A stretch of DNA of 64,000 nt from Acidobacteriota bacterium (GTDB lineage Bacteria; Acidobacteriota; Terriglobia; Acidiferrales; UBA7541). The position numbers were made by a program, and so were the translations under genes. The notes below the pieces were generated by a model. That model saw only the letters and a program-made list of their open reading frames with translations. It searched no databases and was not told where the DNA came from. Each line of letters opens with the position of its first letter. Position 1 is the stretch's first letter. This document shows, in pieces, positions 2,863-52,090 of the stretch. Where the stretch lies: NCBI GenBank assembly GCA_013289665.1, contig JABCZN010000001.1, positions 710,926 through 774,925 on the forward strand. The letters are read 5' to 3'.

Positions 2863-5016
2863 ATGACGCCTGACTCCAACTCGACGGCGGCCCATCTCTC
2901 CCCTGACGCCGCCGTGCCCGCCAAATCCGGCCCCGCCGGACTCCAGCCCCCGCTCGCCCTCCGCGAACCCGTGGAACACGTAATCCACTCCGACCGCCGC
3001 GTCGACCACTACGCTTGGCTCCGCGACAAAAAAGATCCCCGCGTCGTTTCCTACCTGGAAGCCGAAAACGCCTACGCCGACGCCTACCTCAAAACCACCG
3101 AACCCTTCCAATCCCGCCTCTACCACGAAATGCTCGGCCGCATCCAGCAAACCGATCTCACCGTCCCTTACACCCTTCGCGGCTTCGAATACTACACCCG
3201 CACCGTCGAAGGCCAGCAATACTCCATCTATTGCCGCACAGCCGTCCGCGATAGCGCCGAGCAAGTCCTCCTCGATCTGAATCTCCTCGCCGAAAACCAC
3301 TCCTTCCTCGGCGTCGGCATCTTCGAGGTCAGCGACGACAATTCCTTCCTCGCCTACTCCACGGACACCACCGGTTTCCGCCAATACACTCTCGAAATCA
3401 AGAATCTCCAAGACCCCGCGCTGCTTCCCCTCCGCATCGAGCGCGTCACCAGCGCCGCCTGGTCCTCTGACAATCGCACCCTCTTCTACGTAGTCGAGGA
3501 CGAAACTACTAAACGCTCCCATCAACTTTATCGCCACGTCCTCGGTTCCAACGGACCCGACACGCTTCTCTACGAAGAAAAAGACGAGCGCTTCCATATT
3601 GACGTCGAGCGCAGCCGCAGCGGCGCCTACATCTTCCTCGTCGCCAACAGCCACACCACCAGCGAAGTCCGCTACCTGCGCGCCGACACTCCCTCCCTGC
3701 AATTCCAGCTGATCCACGGGCGCCTCGACGACCACGAATACTACGTCGAACACCACCCCGGCAGCTCCGCCGATCCCGCCGGCGGCGTCTTCTTCATCCG
3801 CACCAACGACGCCGGCCGCACTTTCCGCCTCATGACCGCCCCCGCCGTAGATCCCGTCCGCCCTCGCTGGCACGAAGTCATCCCCAACCGTCCAGGCGTC
3901 ATGCTCTCCGGTGTAGCCGCCTTCCGCTCCCACCTCCTCCTGGTCGAACGCGAAGAAGGCCTTCCGCATCTCCGCATCGTTGATCTCACACGCGAAGCTC
4001 CCACTGCGCTTGCCGCGTCCATCCGCATCAACTTTGCCGAGCCCGCCTACAACGCTGCACTCGGCGCCAATCCCGAATTCGAGGCCACCTTCGTCCGCTT
4101 CACCTACGAATCCTTCATCACCCCGCGCTCCGTCTTCGACCTCGACGTCCGCACCGGCGACCGCATCTTGCGCAAGCAGCAACCCGTTCTCGGCGGCTAC
4201 GACCCAACTCTCTACGCCAGCGAGCGCCTTCACGCCATGGCCTCTGACGGCACCAAAATCCCTGTCTCCGTCGTCTATCGCCACGACACTCCCCGCGACG
4301 GCAGCGCCCCTCTCCTCCTCTACGGCTACGGCAGCTACGGCATCTCCATGCCGGTCTCATTCAGCTCCAACCGCCTCAGCCTTCTCGACCGTGGCCTCAT
4401 CTTCGCCATCGCCCACATCCGCGGGGGCGGCGAACTCGGGAAACCCTGGCACGACGCGGGCCGTATGTACCGCAAGATGAACACATTCACCGATTTCATC
4501 GCCTGCGCCGAAGATTTGATTGCCCTGGGTTTCGCGGCAAATAACAAGCTCATCATCGAAGGTGGCAGCGCCGGCGGCCTCCTCATGGGCGCGGTTGCCA
4601 ATCTTCGCCCCAATCTTTTCCGGGCCGTCGTCAGCCACGTCCCTTTCGTCGACGTGCTCAACACCATGCTCGACCCCACTCTCCCGCTTACCGTCGGCGA
4701 GTACGAAGAGTGGGGCAACCCGCAGCGCGCCGAAGATTATTTCTACATAAAAAACTATTGTCCCTACACCCGCCTCGACCGCAAGGACTATCCCGCCATG
4801 CTCATCAAAACAGGCCTCAACGACAGCCAGGTCATGTACTGGGAACCCGCCAAATACGTCGCCAAACTCCGCACCCTGAAAACTGACGGCAACGTCCTCC
4901 TCCTGAAAACCAACATGGGCGCAGGCCACGGCGGCGCCAGCGGCCGCTACGACTACCTGAAAGAAATTGCCTTCGACTACGCCTTCGTCCTCTCCGAACT
5001 GGGCATCTACCAATGA
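2863..5016 (+). CDS. ptrB: Oligopeptidase B (S9A prolyl oligopeptidase family)
   Basis: This serine peptidase cleaves short peptides after basic residues. It has 717 residues, close to the family norm of about 690-720. An N-terminal beta-propeller (about 90-440) precedes an alpha/beta-hydrolase domain. The nucleophile is Ser569 in GGSAGG, followed by Asp654 in TGLNDSQV and His689 in GAGHGGASGR, giving the complete triad in the expected order. RGGGELGKPWHDAG is typical of the family. There is no signal peptide, so it is probably cytoplasmic or periplasmic-leaderless. No strong Shine-Dalgarno is visible before the ATG. A long open frame on the opposite strand (2821-4284) is only a codon-bias shadow. 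Confidence 0.93.
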   Translation: MTPDSNSTAAHLSPDAAVPAKSGPAGLQPPLALREPVEHVIHSDRRVDHYAWLRDKKDPRVVSYLEAENAYADAYLKTTEPFQSRLYHEMLGRIQQTDLTVPYTLRGFEYYTRTVEGQQYSIYCRTAVRDSAEQVLLDLNLLAENHSFLGVGIFEVSDDNSFLAYSTDTTGFRQYTLEIKNLQDPALLPLRIERVTSAAWSSDNRTLFYVVEDETTKRSHQLYRHVLGSNGPDTLLYEEKDERFHIDVERSRSGAYIFLVANSHTTSEVRYLRADTPSLQFQLIHGRLDDHEYYVEHHPGSSADPAGGVFFIRTNDAGRTFRLMTAPAVDPVRPRWHEVIPNRPGVMLSGVAAFRSHLLLVEREEGLPHLRIVDLTREAPTALAASIRINFAEPAYNAALGANPEFEATFVRFTYESFITPRSVFDLDVRTGDRILRKQQPVLGGYDPTLYASERLHAMASDGTKIPVSVVYRHDTPRDGSAPLLLYGYGSYGISMPVSFSSNRLSLLDRGLIFAIAHIRGGGELGKPWHDAGRMYRKMNTFTDFIACAEDLIALGFAANNKLIIEGGSAGGLLMGAVANLRPNLFRAVVSHVPFVDVLNTMLDPTLPLTVGEYEEWGNPQRAEDYFYIKNYCPYTRLDRKDYPAMLIKTGLNDSQVMYWEPAKYVAKLRTLKTDGNVLLLKTNMGAGHGGASGRYDYLKEIAFDYAFVLSELGIYQ

Positions 5017-5040
5017 ACCTTTCAACTCAAACTCAAAAAA

Positions 5041-5095
5041 GCATTGTCATCCTTCGCCTGTCCGGCAGGGATGGGCGAAGGACCCGACCCTCAAC
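5041..5095. repeat. GTCATCC-type dispersed repeat
   Basis: The stretch begins TTGTCATCCTTCGCC and contains CCGGCAGGG and GGCGAAGGACC, which pair across it. Relatives lie at 16,831, 18,152, 22,742, 23,460 and 31,362. Confidence 0.5.
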
Positions 5096-5217
5096 CCTTC
5101 CTTCCAAGTTCAAACGAGCGAATCTCTCCAGCCGCAGGTCTGGCTTCCTCGTCGCTGCTATCTGCTGTCTGATCGCCTCTCGCCGATTACTGATTACTGT
5201 TTACTGATTGCTTCCAA

Positions 5218-7890
5218 ATGTCCGAACCCACCACACCCCTAATGCAGCAATACAACGCGGTAAAAACCCGCTATCCCCACGCCCTGCTCCTGTTCCGCCT
5301 AGGCGACTTCTACGAACTGTTCTATGAAGACGCCATCATCGCCGCGCGCGAACTCCAAATTACCCTTACCTCCCGCAATCGCGAAAAAGGCCAGCCCATC
5401 CCCATGTGCGGCGTTCCCTATCATGCCGCCGACGGCTACATCGCCCGCCTCATCCGCGCCGGCTTCAAAGTCGCCATCTGCGAACAGATGGAGCAGCCCG
5501 GCCCGGGCAAGAAACTTGTCCGCCGCGAAGTCACGCGCGTGATTACTCCCGGAACCGCCACCGATGTCGCCGTCCTCGACGCCCGTGAAAATAATTTCCT
5601 CGCCGCCGTCGCGCAAAACGCCTCCGCCGAAACCATCGGCCTTGCCCTCGTCGATCTCTCCACCGGCGAATTCCAGGCCACCGAATTCTCCGGCCCCGCC
5701 GCGCAAGAATCTCTTCGCGACGAACTCCAACTCGTTCGCCCGCGGGAAACTCTTCTCCCTCGCCCGCAACAACTTTTCGAAACCGCGAAAACCTCTCTCC
5801 TCGACGGTGCTGGTGGCGTCGAAACCCGCGTCGAAGACTGGGTCTTCCACCCCGACTACGCCGAGCGCATCCTCCGCGAGCAGTTCGGCGTCGTCGAACT
5901 CACCGGCTTCGGCCTCGACGATCACCCACAAGCCCTTTCCGCTGCTGGCGCCGTAGTCCACTACCTCCGCGAAAATTCCGCCCGCGGCGACGACGCCCCC
6001 AGCATCGAAGCCCTCCGCCATCTCGATCGCATCCGCTTTTACGAGCAGCACGACGCGCTCGTTCTCGACCCTGTCACCGTCCGCAATCTCGAACTCGTCT
6101 CCCCCATCTTCACCGAAGAATCCAAGTCCGCCGGCCCCACCACCCTCATCGCCGCGCTCGATTCTACCGTCACCGGCATGGGCGCCCGCATGCTCCGCTC
6201 CTGGATGCTTCGCCCGCTAATCGATCTCAACGCCATCGAAGCCCGCCTTGGCGCCGTCGCCCATCTCGTCCAGCAAATCGTCGTCAGGGGCGAAATCCGC
6301 AAGGAACTCCGCGGCATTCAAGACCTCGAGCGCCTCACCAGCCGCATCACCCTCGGCCTCGCTACCCCGCGCGAACTTCTCGCCCTTCGCAAATCCCTCA
6401 TCCAACTTCCCGTCCTCAAGAATTTTCTCACCCCGCCGCAATCCGGCGGCAGCGACCTACTCCGCGCCCTCCACGAAGAAATTGACGAGCTCACCGACGT
6501 CCGCGAAAAACTCGAAAAATCCCTCTCCGACGAGCCGCCCTCCTCCGCCGCCGAGGCCGGCATGATCCGCCCGGGCTACCACGCCGAACTCGACGAGCTC
6601 CGCAACCTCAGCCAGCACAGCAAACAGATCATCGCCTCCATGGAAGAGCGCGAACGCAAGCGGACCGGAATCAACTCTCTAAAAATCCGCTTCAACCAGG
6701 TCTTCGGCTACTACATCGAAATCTCCAAGCCCAATCTCCCCAACGCTCCCGCCGATTATGAACGCAAGCAAACCCTCGTCAACGCCGAGCGCTTCACCTC
6801 TCCCGAACTAAAAGAATATGAGCGCAAGATCCTCGCCGCCGACGAGCGCATCCTCGAAATCGAGCGCCAGCTCTTCATCGACGTCCGCTCCAGCATCGCC
6901 GCCAAAGCTGCGCGACTCCGCCGCACCGCCGCTGCCGTCGCCAAGCTCGATGTCCTCGCCTCTTTCGCGAAACTCGCTGCCGACCGCACTTACGCTCGTC
7001 CCGAATTCAACAACGCCGGCGAACTCCTCATCGTCGGCGGCCGCCATCCCGTCATCGAAGAACTCCTTCGCCAGAAAGGCGAGCGCTTCGTTCCCAACGA
7101 TCTCTATTTCGACTCCGGCCGCCAGCAACTCCTTTTGATCACCGGCCCCAACATGGGCGGCAAGTCCACCTATCTCCGCCAGGCCGCGCTCATCATCCTG
7201 ATGGCCCAGATGGGCTCTTTCGTACCAGCTCGCAGCGCCAAGCTCCCCGTCACCGATCGGATCTTCACCCGCATCGGGGCCAGCGATAATCTCGCCCGTG
7301 GCCGCTCCACCTTCCTTGTCGAAATGAGCGAAGTCGCCGCCATCCTCCATCACGCCACGCCCGAAAGCCTCGTCCTACTCGACGAAGTCGGCCGCGGCAC
7401 CGCCACCTTCGACGGCCTCTCCATCGCCTGGGCCGTCGTCGAACATCTCCAGAAGCACACCCGCTCACGCACTCTGTTCGCCACCCACTATCACGAACTC
7501 ACCGAACTCGCTGAACTTCTTCCAGCCGTCAAAAACGTCCACGTAAGCGTCAAAGAAACGCCAAACGAAATCATCTTTCTCCGCCGCGTCGAACCCGGCA
7601 GCGCCGACAAAAGCTACGGTCTCGAAGTCGCTCGCCTCGCCGGCCTCCCCAAATCCGTGATCGAACGCGCCCGCGAAGTCCTGAAGAAACACGAACAAAG
7701 CGAGCACGAACTAAGCGAAACCCTCAGTCCGGGGGCCGCAGGCCACTCCCCCAACAATGGCAACCAGGCCGTCCTCTTCACCGCTCTGGACCGCGCCGTC
7801 CTTGAAAAACTCCGCAACGCCGACCTCGACAACCTGAAGCCCCTCGACGCCCTAAACCTCCTCTCCGACCTAAAAAAACAAATTGAGTAA
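5218..7890 (+). CDS. mutS: DNA mismatch repair protein MutS
   Basis: This is the mismatch-recognition ATPase, 890 residues long, which is normal. The mismatch-probing Phe-x-Glu is F31-x-E33 in GDFYELF. Connector, lever and clamp domains follow. The ABC-type ATPase has its P-loop in GPNMGGKST around K649, then LLDEVGRGT, a D-loop-like region and FATHYHEL. The C-terminal DNLKPLDALNLLSDLK is the usual dimer/tetramer tail. No mutL lies next to it in this window. It starts at an ATG with no good ribosome-binding site, preceded by repeat-like spacer. Confidence 0.97.
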   Translation: MSEPTTPLMQQYNAVKTRYPHALLLFRLGDFYELFYEDAIIAARELQITLTSRNREKGQPIPMCGVPYHAADGYIARLIRAGFKVAICEQMEQPGPGKKLVRREVTRVITPGTATDVAVLDARENNFLAAVAQNASAETIGLALVDLSTGEFQATEFSGPAAQESLRDELQLVRPRETLLPRPQQLFETAKTSLLDGAGGVETRVEDWVFHPDYAERILREQFGVVELTGFGLDDHPQALSAAGAVVHYLRENSARGDDAPSIEALRHLDRIRFYEQHDALVLDPVTVRNLELVSPIFTEESKSAGPTTLIAALDSTVTGMGARMLRSWMLRPLIDLNAIEARLGAVAHLVQQIVVRGEIRKELRGIQDLERLTSRITLGLATPRELLALRKSLIQLPVLKNFLTPPQSGGSDLLRALHEEIDELTDVREKLEKSLSDEPPSSAAEAGMIRPGYHAELDELRNLSQHSKQIIASMEERERKRTGINSLKIRFNQVFGYYIEISKPNLPNAPADYERKQTLVNAERFTSPELKEYERKILAADERILEIERQLFIDVRSSIAAKAARLRRTAAAVAKLDVLASFAKLAADRTYARPEFNNAGELLIVGGRHPVIEELLRQKGERFVPNDLYFDSGRQQLLLITGPNMGGKSTYLRQAALIILMAQMGSFVPARSAKLPVTDRIFTRIGASDNLARGRSTFLVEMSEVAAILHHATPESLVLLDEVGRGTATFDGLSIAWAVVEHLQKHTRSRTLFATHYHELTELAELLPAVKNVHVSVKETPNEIIFLRRVEPGSADKSYGLEVARLAGLPKSVIERAREVLKKHEQSEHELSETLSPGAAGHSPNNGNQAVLFTALDRAVLEKLRNADLDNLKPLDALNLLSDLKKQIE

Positions 7891-8253
7891 TCCCGGGAAC
7901 GTCAACCTCGCGGTTGGTGTGTTTTTCCTCTCCGCCTCGGTCCGCTGCCAGCCACAGATACTTGAGGGTGCCCCTTTGCGCCGCTCGCAAAGCGTGGGCC
8001 CTTACGATGTGACGCTACAAACTCTCTTCTCTTTTTCTCTTCTCCGCGCGTCCTCTGCGCCGGGTGCCCTACAAGCCGATTTTGTGTGCGGGTCTTGGGT
8101 TTCTCTTTTCTGCATTCCCCGGGTGCCGCACCCTCTCTGCGTCGTTTGCGTCCTCTGGCTTTTCTGTGTCCTCTGCGTTAATTCTTATCTCTTTCTTCGC
8201 TCTCCTTCTTTCCCTCCTTGCCTCATTCCTTCCTTCCCTGTTACAACCACCTC
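7891..8253. repeat. Repeat-rich spacer before anmK
   Basis: No gene is supported. Two successive CTCTGCG..GTTAATT-type pyrimidine repeats (about 8036-8075 and 8101-8225) are joined by a CCGGGTGCC motif. An open frame through it reads hydrophobic residues, but that reflects the repeat composition and not a protein. Confidence 0.5.
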
Positions 8254-45955: not shown

Positions 45956-48900
45956 CTAATTGACCGTCAGACTAATCGGCGGAACCGCCGGAGTTGCCAC
46001 CGGGGTTGTGGTGATCGCGATGCTCGTCGTTCCCGTCACGGTTACATTCAGAGTCCCACTCGTAGACGGCAAGGTACCAGCATCTCCCAGGTAATGCACT
46101 CTGATCGAGTGTGTTCCAACCGGCAACGCTGCCATTTGAAAAGAAGCCGCTCCTCCACTCACCTCTGCCGTCGCCAAAACAGTCGCACCCTCCAGCAGTT
46201 GCGCCTGGCCCTCCGGAGAACCGCCGGTTACTGTCGCGCTGAAATTGAACAGATTGCCCGAACTGACCTTGCCATTTGTCACCGTCTCGCTCGTCACTGT
46301 TTCTACCGGGCCTCCGCCTCCCCCACCCCCGCCGCCTCCCCCACCTCCACCGCAACCTATGGCAAACGTCAACACGCAGACCAGGCTCAGTCCCAGCACA
46401 TTCCAATGTTTGTCTCTTCCCGGCAGCAACATCAGCAGAATCGCTCCCAGTCCGATGAACGCGCTCAGTCCCCACCAGCCTTTTACACTGCGCCTGGAAA
46501 GCAGGCCCGCTGCCTGCGTTTCGCGTTCCTCCGGCACAATCGACGCCGTCAAAGTCCCCGATGTCGCCAGGACGCTCACCGTCAATTGGCCCGTCGCGCT
46601 GGTGCTCCCGTTCGGCACCATAATCGTCAAAGGAGAGTTGCTGCACGCAACTCCCGGCGGCATCGTCGCAGGGCAATTCACCGTCACCGGCCCCGTGAAT
46701 CCCCCGCTCGCCGTAACCGTCACCGTCGAACTCTGGCTCGCACCTGTCACCGAACTCAACGTCACCGCGCTATCGGCCACCGCAATCCCCGGCACAACCG
46801 GCGCCGTCACCGTGAAATTCACCGCGGTTGAATACCCACCGGGGTACGGGTCCGCAACAGTGACCGGATACACGCCCGCGGCGGCAAGAAGCGTTGGATA
46901 AACCGAAGCGGTCAGCTGTGTCGAGCTGACAAACGTTGTTTGCTGGCTGAATCCGTTGAACAATACGTTCGCAAATGGCTGAAAATTCGTTCCATTCACG
47001 GTGATTGGAACTGGATTCACTGGATTGGCCGGCGCGCTCGTTGGGCTTAGGGATGTGATGGTCGGGATCACGCTGGGCTGCTGAATCGAAAATGAAATCG
47101 AAGTCGAAGGTCCGCCGCCCGGAGTGGGGTTTGAGACTGTTACAGGGACTGTCCCCACATTAGGAAGCCCGATTTGAGAAGCCGGCACGGTCGCAATCAA
47201 GTTTGTAGTGTTATATACCGTGGTTGTCTCTGCCACGCCGTTGAAATTCAATACCGCGCCGGGTGCAAAGTTGGATCCGTAGGCGTTGATCGTAAATCCT
47301 GGAGACGTGGCTACGACGATGGTCGGATCGATGCCATTCAGTGTGGGTACAGGATAGGTCCCCAGATTCACCGTGAAATTCAAGGTGTTCGACGGCCCCG
47401 ACGAGGGTTGCGGGTTTGACACCTCCACCTGAAACGGACCCGGCAGGACAATCGCCGAAGCGGGTATGGTCGCCGTAAGCTGGGTGCTATTTATAAAGGT
47501 CGTGGGCACAAAGGATGCGTAAAACGTCTTCGCATTAATGAACAGCACCTGTGCCCCGTTGAGGAAGTTGCTCCCTGTGACGGTCAGATTCACCGCCGGA
47601 TCACCTGAATTCGCGCTCGTCGGTAAAATCGTCGTCAGCGTCGCCGCCGGGTTTTGCCCGAAGTTATACAAAAAATCCAGGTGCGCGTGGCCGCCCAGCG
47701 CGACAGGATTCGGATCCGGCGGCCCAAACGAACTCACCTGGATGTAATACGTCGTTCCTGCCGACAGCGCCACATTCGTCAATTGCGACTGTATATTTAC
47801 ACCAGAAACGATATCGTCGTTGCAGGCCACGCTCGTCAGGCTCCCCTGGCTGCCCATCCAGATCGAAATCACCGTGTCGTAACTGCTTCCAATCGTGTCC
47901 ACCGACAAGCCTGCCGAAAATGTCGGCGTGAATTTGTACCAAATCGTGTTGTACGTTCCATTCTGGTGGCCGCCGGTATTCCCTTGCGCCGCGGTGTACT
48001 GGTTTACGCAAACCGGTGTCGGGTCGCTCGATTCCGTCGTCGCTCCTGAACTGTCCCTGTCGTCTGTAAAGTTATATGTGCCAATGTTGATCGCGTTCGC
48101 AAAATTGTCGTTCGTCGGAGCCGCTGCCGTTACCTTGAACTGTATCGCCTTCGACTGCCCTCCTCCCGGCGGGGAACCCAAAACCGAAATGTCATTCGTG
48201 CTTCCATAGGGACCCAGAAATACTCCCGGCAACGTTGCCCCGATACTCGTCGAGCTGTTGACCGTTGCGCTAATTCCAGCCTGCACCCCGTTCCAGAAAA
48301 CTTTGCTTCCCGTCTCGAAATTTGTCCCCGCCAGGGTAACCGGAATATTGTTCACGGGATTCGCCTGCACCGGGGTGCTGCTTGGAGTCGCGCTCGTCAG
48401 CGTCGGCACGCCTCCCGTCACCACGAATGTCAATCCGTTGCTGGTGCCGCTGCTCGGAGTATTTACCGTAACCTGCGGTGTTCCGCTCGTTAGCAAGCTG
48501 GTCGGCAACGCTCCGTGCAATGTGGTGTCGGAGGGGGTACCCGTCGCCGCGAGCGCCGTCCCTCCGAACAAAATCGATCCGCCGGTCAGCCCGCTTCCTG
48601 TCACCGTCAGGGTCAGCGCAATTCCCCCGCTAGTCGCGGAGGTCGGCGAAAGCGAGACGATGTGCGGCCCTGCCCCGAACGAGAAATTGTTCAGCGCAAT
48701 ATCCCAGACGCCGCGCCCGTGGGTGGCCGCCCTTAGCGTCCGTGAAGGCTCATGCAATTTCAGCGACAGCACCGCCACGCGTGGCAGACCGGTCCCCAGC
48801 GTGCTCCACGTGCACGGAAGCGGCGTGCAATTCCTCACAAACACTCCCAGGTCGGTCGCTGCGTAAATTGTCCCCAGCACGTCCGGGTCCACCACCACGT

Positions 48901-51352
48901 CGTTCACCGGAATGTTCGGCAAATCCGTGGCCGCCGGTGTCATGCAGTTCGCCACCGAACAACTCACATCCACCCATGTCGCTCCGCGGTCTGTCGTTTT
49001 GAAGATGTGCCCGATGGGATCATTCACCGTGAAGCTCGTCGAATTGATCACGAACGAGAATCCAGAAAATGCCGCGTACGCCGTTTGGCCCGTCGTATCC
49101 GCTGGGTCCGCCGCGATCGCGGTCACTGCCCTCGGCGGCAGGCTCGCTTGCCCGGTCACTTGTTGCATCCCGCCACCCGGTGTGACGTTGCTGGTCACGA
49201 AAATCTGCCCGCTAGATACACCTGCATACAATGATTTGGAGTTTGTGGGCGCCACTGCCAACGCCGTTATCGCTGTCTGGCTTCCCTCGTTCCCAAGACC
49301 TGCTTGAATCGTCGTCCAGCTATTTCCCGCATCCACCGACTGGTAAACCGTGGTTGTTCCCAGATACACCACGTTCGGCTGTCCCGGATCCGTCACCAGG
49401 GGCGGCACAAAATTTGAATAATCCGACGCATTGATTCCATTCACGGCCGGCGAAAATGTGGACGACCCGCCGTTTTGATACGAAACCAGTACGTTGGGCC
49501 CGTTGCACGCGATGTACACCGTGCTCGGAATCATTGTGTCGATCGCCGTCCCGGTGCCGTCCCCACAAATATTCAGATTTGTCCAGGCTGTCGCCTCTGC
49601 ATAGGTTTGCGTTCCGTTGTCTTGCGTCCCTCCCAGCCCAATCGCGGCCGTCGAAGGGTGTATCGAAATCGCCGGATAAAATTGTGAAAGCGTTAGCGCC
49701 GATCCGTTCAGGTTCATCCACGTTACGTTCGTCGCTTCCGCGTCGTCTGTCCTCCAGATGCCCCCATCATTGCCCAGATACGCCCTGACTTTTCCCGTCG
49801 GCAATTTCACAAACGCAATCGCGTGCGTGTCCACGTGGGGGATCCCGGCGTTGGGCGGCGCCAGATTCGGAATCACCGAACTCCAGTTCGTTCCACCGCT
49901 CTTTGTCCGAACCACCCAGAACGGTGCGCCCCCGTTGGTCGCCGCGCCTCCTCCGAAGAAGACGATCTGTTTGTTGTTCGGATCCACCTTCACCACGTTG
50001 TCGTACCAACATTGTGGCTGGCACACGTCCGGCGCTTGGGTATCGCTCCAGGTGGTGCCCCCGTCCGTAGTCACGAACACTCCTAGATTTGGTTGCGAAG
50101 CGTTCGTTCCGTCCGCTACTGACGCGTACACCGTATTGCTGTCGCTCGGCGCAATTCCCAGATCAATTCTTCCCATGTTCGATTGCAACGGCAGGCTGGT
50201 GCTCAGCAAACGCGCAAAATGGATCGTCGAACACGTCGATCCAATCGACGTCGCCTTGTAGATCCCATTCCCGTTCGGCGCCCCGCTGGAACTTCCAAAC
50301 GGATTCCCCAGAGCCGCATAAGCCACGCTCGACGACGCAAACCCCACAAACGTCGCCATCTGGTCCGGCAGAATATTGCTCCAAGTCGCCCCGCTGTTGT
50401 CCGAGCAATACACTCCTTCCGTCAGTCCTTCCGCAAACTGCGTCTGCGCCGCCACCAGCACCAGATTGGGGTGCGAGGGACTCACCGAAACGTAGCTGAT
50501 CCGCGTTCCCCCCAGCGTGAAATACCCGAACGGAGTCAAATCGTCATAAGGCCCAATGAACGGGCATGTAGGACTCGCCACTGTGCAGGTTTGCTTCCAG
50601 GTTTGCCCGTGGTCGCTCGATATCAGCACTCCAGCCCCATAGTAAATGTCGAAACCAATTGACGCCTGCTCGCCCGTCCCTGCATATACCGTCGCAGGCT
50701 GCGAGGGCGCGAACGCAATCGATCCCATCGCTAGCGACGCATTCTGATCGCCCTCTGCCGTCCACGTAACTCCCCCGTCCGTCGTCCGCCAGATTCCACC
50801 CTGCGCTCCCCCAATCAGGACGGTATTCCCCGTACTGTCCGTGTGGTCCACGGCGATGGTCGTGATTCGCCCTGTCACCGCACCAAACGCGCTGCCCGAT
50901 GTTGGCGATGGCCCAATCGAAGTCCATGTTGTCGTCGAAGTTCCGGACTCGGCCATCACCTCGGCATATCTGCCGTCCACACGCTGCTTCAGTTTTCCTT
51001 CTGCCACCATCATTCGCTGCAGGTGTTCGAACGCTTTCAGCCGCGCCCCGGCCGGCAGCCGCCCGTTCACGTTGCTGCGCTGCTTGTAAAACCATTCCGC
51101 GCGCTTATCAATTTCATCCGGCCCATACAGATCCGCCTCTTTTTCCGATTCGGGCCCCTGCTCCATTCTGCCCGGATTGGGCGCGGCCGTTTTCTTCACC
51201 ACGTGCGCCGGCGCAGGGCTTTGCTCGGAATTTGCACCTGTCGCAGGAGTTTCCTGGCCGGCCGAGACACACATCGCCCCCCCTCCAAATCCCAAAATGA
51301 AAAGAGTAAACGCAAGAGGTAACTTCCGAAGACAAACCCGGTGTGCTCGCAT
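45956..51352 (-). CDS. Giant secreted BNR / TIG / Ig-like surface protein
   Basis: The protein has about 1,798 residues from the ATG at 51,352 (a TTG at 51,388 is possible). After a signal peptide, residues about 115-885 form BNR/sortilin-like propeller repeats with Asp-box-like strands (VLISSDHGQTWKQTC, IFKTTDRGATWVDV, GVFVTTDGGTTWSD). TIG/IPT domains follow (about 900-1,075 and 1,240-1,520) around a pre-peptidase-C-like domain (about 1,085-1,230, NDNFANAINIGTYNF). Near the C-terminus are two hydrophobic stretches (about 1,617-1,664) then a lipobox-like AIGC and a run of 14 Gly, then a final Ig-like domain. It probably binds glycans or surfaces outside the cell. The actual ligand is unknown. 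Confidence 0.85.
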   Translation of the reverse strand: MRAHRVCLRKLPLAFTLFILGFGGGAMCVSAGQETPATGANSEQSPAPAHVVKKTAAPNPGRMEQGPESEKEADLYGPDEIDKRAEWFYKQRSNVNGRLPAGARLKAFEHLQRMMVAEGKLKQRVDGRYAEVMAESGTSTTTWTSIGPSPTSGSAFGAVTGRITTIAVDHTDSTGNTVLIGGAQGGIWRTTDGGVTWTAEGDQNASLAMGSIAFAPSQPATVYAGTGEQASIGFDIYYGAGVLISSDHGQTWKQTCTVASPTCPFIGPYDDLTPFGYFTLGGTRISYVSVSPSHPNLVLVAAQTQFAEGLTEGVYCSDNSGATWSNILPDQMATFVGFASSSVAYAALGNPFGSSSGAPNGNGIYKATSIGSTCSTIHFARLLSTSLPLQSNMGRIDLGIAPSDSNTVYASVADGTNASQPNLGVFVTTDGGTTWSDTQAPDVCQPQCWYDNVVKVDPNNKQIVFFGGGAATNGGAPFWVVRTKSGGTNWSSVIPNLAPPNAGIPHVDTHAIAFVKLPTGKVRAYLGNDGGIWRTDDAEATNVTWMNLNGSALTLSQFYPAISIHPSTAAIGLGGTQDNGTQTYAEATAWTNLNICGDGTGTAIDTMIPSTVYIACNGPNVLVSYQNGGSSTFSPAVNGINASDYSNFVPPLVTDPGQPNVVYLGTTTVYQSVDAGNSWTTIQAGLGNEGSQTAITALAVAPTNSKSLYAGVSSGQIFVTSNVTPGGGMQQVTGQASLPPRAVTAIAADPADTTGQTAYAAFSGFSFVINSTSFTVNDPIGHIFKTTDRGATWVDVSCSVANCMTPAATDLPNIPVNDVVVDPDVLGTIYAATDLGVFVRNCTPLPCTWSTLGTGLPRVAVLSLKLHEPSRTLRAATHGRGVWDIALNNFSFGAGPHIVSLSPTSATSGGIALTLTVTGSGLTGGSILFGGTALAATGTPSDTTLHGALPTSLLTSGTPQVTVNTPSSGTSNGLTFVVTGGVPTLTSATPSSTPVQANPVNNIPVTLAGTNFETGSKVFWNGVQAGISATVNSSTSIGATLPGVFLGPYGSTNDISVLGSPPGGGQSKAIQFKVTAAAPTNDNFANAINIGTYNFTDDRDSSGATTESSDPTPVCVNQYTAAQGNTGGHQNGTYNTIWYKFTPTFSAGLSVDTIGSSYDTVISIWMGSQGSLTSVACNDDIVSGVNIQSQLTNVALSAGTTYYIQVSSFGPPDPNPVALGGHAHLDFLYNFGQNPAATLTTILPTSANSGDPAVNLTVTGSNFLNGAQVLFINAKTFYASFVPTTFINSTQLTATIPASAIVLPGPFQVEVSNPQPSSGPSNTLNFTVNLGTYPVPTLNGIDPTIVVATSPGFTINAYGSNFAPGAVLNFNGVAETTTVYNTTNLIATVPASQIGLPNVGTVPVTVSNPTPGGGPSTSISFSIQQPSVIPTITSLSPTSAPANPVNPVPITVNGTNFQPFANVLFNGFSQQTTFVSSTQLTASVYPTLLAAAGVYPVTVADPYPGGYSTAVNFTVTAPVVPGIAVADSAVTLSSVTGASQSSTVTVTASGGFTGPVTVNCPATMPPGVACSNSPLTIMVPNGSTSATGQLTVSVLATSGTLTASIVPEERETQAAGLLSRRSVKGWWGLSAFIGLGAILLMLLPGRDKHWNVLGLSLVCVLTFAIGCGGGGGGGGGGGGGGPVETVTSETVTNGKVSSGNLFNFSATVTGGSPEGQAQLLEGATVLATAEVSGGAASFQMAALPVGTHSIRVHYLGDAGTLPSTSGTLNVTVTGTTSIAITTTPVATPAVPPISLTVN

Positions 51353-51553
51353 GACCCGTCCGACTGTCCAGAGTCTTTTTCCGCCCAAGCCCGACCCCGA
51401 GGTTGGCAGAGCTTAACACTTTCATTTTTCAGTGTCTAGGCGGTGACGTCCCGCGATTGTTATATCCTTCCCGTTTTGGCACCGCAAAAGCGGCCGAGTA
51501 ACCTAAGAACCGTCCCTTGACACCTCGCTCCCAATTCCTCAATCATTCCCTTC

Positions 51554-52090
51554 ATGTCCGATACTCTCAGCCAACGCCTCGCCGGCATCGTTCTCCCCGA
51601 CGCCTTCGGCAAATCCATCCGCCTCGGCTCCCTCTGGGAAAATAATCCCGCCGTCCTCGTCTTCCTTCGCCACTACGGCTGAATCTTCTGTCGCGAGCAC
51701 GTCGCGCAGTTGCGCGAGCACCAGCAAGCCTTCCGCGAAAAACACGCCTCTCTGGCCGCCATCAGCCTCGGCGATTCCCACTACGCCCGCATCTTCCAGG
51801 AGGAAACCAAAATTGCCTTCCCCCTGCTGATCGATGAGCATCGCCAGACCTACGAACTCGCCAGCCTCCGAAAAGCCAACCTCCTCCATCTCTTCCGCGG
51901 CGACAATTTCAAAAGCCGCAAACGCGCCCGCGCCGCAGGCCACGAGCAACACCCGCTGGGGCGCGATCCGTTCCAGCTAGGCGGCACATTCATTTTCGGC
52001 CCCGGTAATGTTGACCGCTTCGCCCACCTGAGCCAGACTTTCGGTGACAACGCCTCCCCCGCCACCCTCCTAGCGAATCTCCCAACCTAG
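51554..52090 (+). CDS. Peroxiredoxin-like protein with in-frame TGA at the CxxC site (candidate selenoprotein)
   Basis: This thioredoxin-fold AhpC/TSA-like protein of the PRXL2/SelL type has 178 residues if TGA at 51,680 is decoded. The frame runs MSDTLSQRLAGIVLPDAFG to VLVFLRHYG, then TGA, then IFCREHVAQLREH and on to PFQLGGTFIFGPGNVDRFAH and FGDNA without further stops. Relatives carry FLRHFGCxFCRE, so TGA falls exactly on the first active-site Cys and the product would have U43-I-F-C46. SelL-type relatives with selenocysteine at this site are known. A hairpin starts 20 nt downstream (see 51,702-51,717). The downstream part shows no decay. The alternative is a simple nonsense mutation. Confidence 0.75.
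51702..51717 (+). promoter_or_regulatory. SECIS-like hairpin after the in-frame TGA
   Basis: TCGCGC pairs with GCGCGA around an AGTT loop. The loop begins 26 nt after the TGA and has G in its first two positions followed by T, matching the usual description of bacterial SECIS elements (apical loop about 16-37 nt away, G near the loop start). A competing CGCGA-GCACG-TCGCG hairpin (51,692-51,706) overlaps it. Confidence 0.5.

Follow-up and report, generated by a model that had tools for sequence, protein, structure and literature searches.

A predicted SelL-related, PRXL2-like selenoprotein in Acidobacteriota with an in-frame UGA and a candidate SECIS hairpin in the coding region

The window, a stretch of 64,000 nucleotides from an Acidobacteriota bacterium, contains a gene (Table 1) that very probably encodes a selenoprotein, in which a UGA codon would be read as selenocysteine (Sec) 43 by means of a predicted bacterial SECIS (bSECIS) hairpin. 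The predicted product is most likely a PRXL2/SelL-type thiol-disulfide or peroxide reductase. A preliminary description of this DNA had proposed the selenoprotein reading, which is supported by conservation of the site, by coding constraint on both sides of it, by a hairpin that agrees with the bSECIS model and shows covariation, and by the presence of tRNA-Sec and SelA in the genome.

Table 1. Positions, in the window, of the predicted selenoprotein gene and associated features
Feature	Position	Strand	Basis
Weak promoter-like TTGACA-18-AATCAT	51517..51546	+	Consensus match only; 1 found vs 0.2 expected
SelL-related/PRXL2-like selenoprotein gene (predicted), 178 codons with one in-frame TGA	51554..52090	+	Translation, profile scores, pN/pS
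TGA codon 43, inferred Sec codon	51680..51682	+	TGA in 25/25 orthologues and 6 further phylum orthologues
TGT for Cys46, the inferred resolving Cys in U-x-x-C	51689..51691	+	Sequence; alignment to the second active-site Cys in human prostamide/PGF synthase
Predicted bSECIS apical hairpin, 6-bp stem TCGCGC (51702-51707)/GCGCGA (51712-51717), loop AGTT (51708-51711)	51702..51717	+	Synonymous constraint, covariation, bSECIS criteria in passages of PMC13188914
Shortened ORF, TTG start, 126 aa	51710..52090	+	ORF list without recoding; protein search entry P0003 is the window's own piece

The frame runs from its ATG to a TAG at 52088-52090, and the TGA at residue 43 is the sole internal stop. Translation through this TGA yields 178 residues, which bears out the earlier claim of a frame intact on either side, and the site reads HYG-U-IFCRE, as had been reported. 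Annotation without recoding does miss the N-terminus, as was anticipated, but the loss is 52 residues because the listed ORF begins at the TTG at 51710; the 42 residues given previously are those before the UGA. The 1810-aa ORF that adjoins the gene on the opposite strand (window 45956-51388, minus strand) contains a long poly-Gly run. In the surroundings of 32 loci, up to 1.5 kb and more where the locus allowed, no ORF is common to more than three loci, so neighboring genes do not indicate a pathway. An Rfam scan of the window gave no match at gathering score.

Against the NCBIfam model NF040769 ("SelL-related redox protein"; cut-off 120), the translation through the TGA reaches 125.2 bits, a borderline value, as an orthologue (L024) falls barely below the cut-off at 119.9, and the profile also matches relatives and sister subfamilies. 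The score against Pfam PF13911 (AhpC-TSA_2) is 53.2 bits, with a cut-off of 27, and that against the AhpC-TSA Pfam model is 48.3 bits. An AlphaFold2 model, built with Cys in place of Sec from a 38-row alignment, predicts a thioredoxin fold (mean pLDDT 91.6, pTM 0.88) in which three strands and two helices lie N-terminal to residue 43, and this residue immediately precedes helix 44-55. The PF13911 score and the CxxC-type site at the start of a helix place the protein in the PRXL2/AhpC-TSA_2 group.

The TGA is kept in relatives at several taxonomic depths. A search of 89 genomes of the family (E 1e-8) gave 26 matches in 22 genomes. Full-length copies occur in 15 of the 89, the organism's own included, each with one TGA; a genus-mate (G012) retains a remnant of 108 aa, truncated at the 5' end, that does not include the site, and the remaining 10 matches belong to sister subfamilies, nine with one TGA and one a Cys form (L043). 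Among 399 genomes drawn evenly from the class, matches at E 1e-25 were found in 25, comprising 24 full-length copies and the G012 remnant, and the same codon is TGA in all 24, in the context HYG-U-[IV]-FC. A phylum sample of 396 genomes, queried with a Cys homologue at E 1e-12, gave 26 matches in 25 genomes. All eight close copies (E 6.1e-60 or better), two of them shared with the class set, have one TGA at the site, and the other 18 matches are sister subfamilies: 14 with one TGA at the site, including one with an additional TAG upstream of its first Met (L108), three with two TGA codons and one with Cys (L097). Five relatives on named contigs carry TGA (L049 and L051), GGA for Gly (L050) or, in the distant L052 and L053, TGC for Cys. 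L051 lies on a 3.8-kb contig labeled Planctomycetota, which may be a binning error given its tree position among acidobacterial sequences.

Leaving out three duplicates (L049 of L029, L091 of L023 and L095 of L076) and one row without the site (L038), there are 31 distinct orthologues with TGA at this codon, and they represent several families in the phylum; the codon alignment contains 25 (the 24 class copies and L051), and six are additional. The preliminary description had asked whether homologues have Cys or TGA here, and all intact close copies in the class and phylum samples have TGA. It had also held that random stops elsewhere in close strains would speak against a selenoprotein; codon 43 is the sole stop column in the 25-row alignment, with TGA in every row. 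The gene thus combines one in-frame UGA, kept in relatives, with constraint on both sides of it, as a bacterial selenoprotein gene does.

This constraint is comparable on the two sides. Comparison of the window copy with 24 others gives a median pN/pS of 0.35 over codons 1-42 and 0.33 over codons 44-178, with an upstream maximum of 0.81 (L034). Frequent saturation of the synonymous distances makes these values rough. Purifying selection acts on the 42 codons upstream of the TGA as it does on those downstream. These observations bear on the idea that the gene is a pseudogene, in which the TGA is a nonsense mutation or sequencing error in a formerly Cys-encoding gene. The remnant in G012 shows that the gene decays in places, and neither selB nor selD is in the organism's own assembly (see below). 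However, TGA occupies the same codon in the 31 orthologues, the 25-row alignment is otherwise free of stops, and purifying selection is seen in both halves, which makes a pseudogene very improbable.

The hairpin reported in the preliminary description is present at SECIS distance, with G as the second base of the loop. In the bSECIS model, as given in passages of a 2026 review (PMC13188914), a loop of 3-9 nt and a stem of 4-16 bp, with G in the first two loop bases, lie 16-37 nt after the UGA. The window hairpin agrees with this model in its AGTT loop, its 6-bp stem, its G in second position and its distance of 25 nt from the UGA to the apical loop; the stem begins 19 nt after the UGA. In the window sequence alone the hairpin is moderately unusual, as 166 of 5000 synonymous recodings have an apical hairpin as stable, and the case is carried by the alignment. 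Moreover, the minimum-energy fold of a free 48-nt RNA from the window copy prefers a competing hairpin that uses upstream GTCGCG, and the corresponding folds of some other copies, such as L035, L079 and L093, are likewise not the AGTT hairpin.

The hairpin codons form the stretch of the gene with the strongest synonymous constraint. Mean normalized synonymous entropy is 0.079 over codons 50-54, compared with 0.73 over 99 degenerate conserved columns; these codons form the lowest of 95 five-column windows, and none of 200,000 random draws was as low. Leu53 is TTG in all 25 rows, versus 61 of 502 among other Leu codons. The AGTT loop occurs at this place in 45 of 53 TGA rows from several subfamilies, including all 31 close orthologues, and it is absent from this place in all four Cys DNA sequences available as controls. 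One of the four inner stem pairs is broken in three of the 31 close orthologues (L033, L083 and L093), and eight of the 53 TGA rows (L044, L045, L048, L099, L102, L103, L105 and L106) are not paired in this register. Four sequences with their hairpin at another offset (L039, L040, L046 and L047) were kept out of the register count. They form a thiol-peroxidase-like GHW-U-PFC subfamily with TGA and have a CCGCC-AGTT-GGCGG-type hairpin nearer the UGA.

Compensated stems are found in L107 (GCGGCGC/GCGCCGC), in L111 (TTGCTGC/GCAGCAA) and in L100 and L108 (GCGGTGC-AGGT-GCATCGC). We measured covariation over seven pairs in 52 of the 53 TGA rows (L048 left out) plus the GGA row, of which 40 are distinct. 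Changes on both sides were found in 24 cells, compared with 7.5 in shuffles, and in none of 500 shuffles was the number as high; both-sided changes affect all seven pairs, a result reached by 3 of 500 shuffles, where the shuffles ignore relatedness and the structure was derived from the same sequences. The covariation score is 0.309, versus 0.044-0.123 in six slid versions. Such covariation of the stem across subfamilies is what would be expected of a bacterial SECIS.

Public databases present this family in a different form. A protein search returned 876 homologues at E 1e-10, and we examined the best 120 of these, one of which is the window's own piece, P0003. Ninety-two of the best 120 are 124-144 aa long and begin just after the site (91 of 119 when the own piece is not counted), and these short homologues presumably have an upstream UGA, judging from the protein entries. 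The other 28 are full length, with Cys (21), Trp (5), Arg (1) or Gly (1) at the site. All five Trp entries come from jgi, and their TGA was probably read as Trp by the gene caller. With 91 of the 119 best homologues starting immediately downstream of the site, most of the family is probably concealed in databases by truncation.

The same annotations would be correct if the UGA were a real stop, and the locus yielded a peptide of 42 residues, an internally initiated protein of 126-134 residues, or both. TTG, ATG or GTG starts do exist downstream of the UGA. Yet in-frame constraint extends over the N-terminal 42 codons, the hairpin is conserved, Cys takes the place of the UGA within one unbroken protein in 21 of the 28 full-length homologues among the best 120, and three strands and two helices of the predicted fold precede residue 43. 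We therefore regard a genuine stop as highly unlikely and favor readthrough with Sec.

The genome of this organism is represented by an assembly of 4.5 Mb in 26 contigs that is 77% complete. It contains tRNA-Sec (C2:138148-138242, 62.6 bits) and SelA (C6:52925-54289, 554 bits), whereas searches of this incomplete assembly did not find selB or selD, so that the set of Sec genes for which the preliminary description had suggested a search was recovered in part. That description had also counted the lack of selB or tRNA-Sec against its reading; tRNA-Sec is present, and selB, not found here, is over the cut-off in 75 of the 89 family genomes, as are selD in 80 and tRNA-Sec in 68. All five selB matches in the own genome are under the cut-off. 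By frame reading, four of these are CysN, LepA, Era and IF-2 (the fifth is L012), and the selD match is PurM. The selB search of the own genome also gave no EF-Tu-type match, although EF-Tu appears among the matches in relatives, judging by frame length; the absence of selB from the assembly is thus weak evidence, and the same gap is seen in some fuller relatives, such as G006.

Among the 14 other carriers of the gene, selB is found in 13, selD in 14 and tRNA-Sec in 13; one carrier (G079, 73% complete) is without two of the three. Nine genus-mates (G004, G021-G027 and G030) have selB and selD on one contig, separated by about 23-153 kb, so both could fall in one missing segment. When 20 kb around the G021 selB was searched against the own genome at the DNA level, only query bases 3793-8110 matched, with no match over selB or the following 8.4 kb. 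This result fits an assembly gap, but proves nothing at about 70% identity. A search of plasmid records gave one weak match (33%). Carriage of the gene is not significantly associated with detected Sec genes across the 89 genomes (Fisher p 1.0 for selB, 0.11 for tRNA-Sec and 1.0 for selD), a comparison that is uninformative because the Sec pathway is nearly ubiquitous in the family; the five genomes without selB, selD and tRNA-Sec are also without the gene. About 3 kb from selA in one sequence, L018, is an arsenite methyltransferase gene (4971-5837, plus strand; PRK11873, 366.7 bits).

UGA also occurs within selD genes of this family. The 12 TGA copies that we read have it at GUxxK, and eight copies chosen as controls have Cys, such that SelD alternates between Sec (TGA) and Cys inside one genome family (L115-L134). 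Stems below about -7 kcal/mol occur in six of the 12 and have GGTTG, GGT, GTCTT or TGGA as loops; in L118, L125 and L126 the stem is GAGTCCAG-GGTTG-CTGGATTC. A simple search found only weak hairpins in the other six, and one of the eight Cys controls reached -9.3, so this test does not separate Sec from Cys cleanly. The selD copies do not bear out a shared use of the AGUU hairpin, as their stems carry other loops or are weak.

Least probable of all is that suppression or a variant code gives Trp, Cys or Gly at the UGA: the five jgi homologues with Trp (probably from a TGA=Trp table) and the two near-identical Gly sequences (L050 and P0012) could be cited for it, but TGA terminates 22 of 49 long ORFs, taken mechanically from the window and two other stretches, which argues against general reassignment, and here UGA stands at one redox-active codon with a SECIS-type hairpin after it, in a genome with tRNA-Sec and SelA.

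In a site-masked gene tree of 67 rows, Sec, Cys and other residues interchange; the Cys label needs 12 changes, 8 of these forced by well-supported branches, and the Sec label 13, with 5 forced. These counts are indicative, as the tree leaves 17 of its 64 inner branches open and takes its Cys rows from database proteins annotated as full length. In the near relative L050 (4001-4519), GGA (Gly) replaces TGA and the complete hairpin is kept. The intact hairpin beside Gly suggests a recent loss of Sec, and a sequencing error is unlikely because P0012 is a second, near-identical Gly protein.

Other arrangements are seen in sister subfamilies. L107 (1501-2010), L109 (1501-2004) and L110 (1501-1974) have two in-frame TGA codons that would give U-x-x-U, the SelL-type motif, and they keep the AGTT loop. 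In L041 (1501-1863) and L042 (1501-1884), which form a RHFG-U-PFY subfamily, the second Cys is replaced by Tyr, leaving a lone Sec, and the hairpin is an identical CGCGC-AGTT-GCGCG. The own genome has a second SelL-related gene (L048, C18:9972-10376, minus strand), which has TGA in frame at RHFG-U-TFCRE and is without the AGTT loop; the matched part of this gene reaches 111.8 bits, under the NF040769 cut-off. L043 is the Cys version of this second gene in a genus-mate (G005).

Among solved structures, human prostamide/prostaglandin F synthase (PRXL2B) is the closest match, both by sequence (PDB 9us9, 9.4e-08) and by fold (9usa, TM 0.80). This enzyme has a Cys-x-x-Cys site and about 20% identity to the read-through protein. 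Its two active-site Cys residues, which are mutated in 9usa (C44S/C47S), are the alignment partners of U43 and C46, in accordance with the U-x-x-C redox site that the preliminary description had proposed. That description had spoken of a PRXL2/SelL-like peroxiredoxin. The UxxC site is indeed of the thioredoxin/PRXL2 type, but the canonical peroxiredoxin motif, PxxxT/SxxC, is absent, as is TxxU: the site is FLRHYGUIFC, with His at -3. Several known groups invite comparison, including SelL, whose UxxU site forms a diselenide, SelU (PRXL2A), which is PRXL2-type, and cd02970 (PRX_like2).

SelL is a redox selenoprotein of Prx-like type whose first active-site residue is Sec, as predicted for the window protein. 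The two differ in that SelL is UxxU whereas the site here is U43-I-F-C46, so the gene lies outside SelL proper; the UxxU forms in this phylum are the three described above. SelL is mentioned in PMC2398784 and PMC3316567 and in a reference title in PMC2874816. Fish selenoprotein U belongs to a family whose members have Sec or Cys depending on the lineage, according to passages of PMC3316567, and is likened here by description only; the eukaryotic SECIS lies in the 3'-UTR (passages of PMC13188914), unlike the window hairpin, which is within the coding frame. The same review gives PxxxTxxU for Sec forms of the peroxiredoxin motif. Its Table 1 lists cd02970 with UxxS, a Prx-like thiol:disulfide oxidoreductase (PF00578) with UxxC/UxxU and a Redoxin family (PF08534) with UxxC. 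These are also predicted bacterial selenoproteins of the AhpC/TSA superfamily, but the table has no row for NF040769 and no UxxC form of cd02970, and the PF00578 row is compared by description only.

In the accessible passages of the literature on NF040769, "SelL-related redox protein" and selenoproteins of Acidobacteria or Acidobacteriota, we found no description of this form. A 2006 survey gives four selenoproteins in three families for Acidobacteria (passages of PMC1794560), and the deep-Sep study gives three known selenoproteins in Occallatibacter riparius (passages of PMC12013277). Since these selenoproteins are unnamed in those passages, the family may already be known under another name.

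A plausible course of events begins with SelA, which would make selenocysteyl-tRNA on the tRNA-Sec of the own genome. SelB, not found in the incomplete assembly, would then bind the AGUU hairpin and deliver the selenocysteyl-tRNA at the UGA. Because the canonical PxxxTxxC motif is absent, our best guess is a thioredoxin-like U-x-x-C chemistry, in which Sec attacks and Cys46 resolves. Sec43 would act as the nucleophile toward a peroxide or disulfide, Sec43 and Cys46 would form a selenenylsulfide, and a thioredoxin-type reductant would reset the site.

On balance, we lean toward the broader view that Acidobacteriota have a large and mostly unrecorded SelL/PRXL2-type Sec subfamily, in which UxxC, UxxU, UxxY and CxxC sites interchange and one coding-region SECIS, with an AGUU loop, a fixed distance of 25 nt and a covarying stem, is largely kept, and which databases mostly show as truncated "peroxiredoxin-like" proteins of 124-144 residues. 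If the selenoprotein reading is right, a Sec form of the PRXL2/SelL group would be added in an abundant bacterial phylum, and routine annotation would be stripping the N-terminus and the catalytic residue from a whole family. The natural Sec, Cys, Gly and UxxU variants, together with the covarying SECIS, would then provide a test set for what is gained with selenium and for recognition by SelB.
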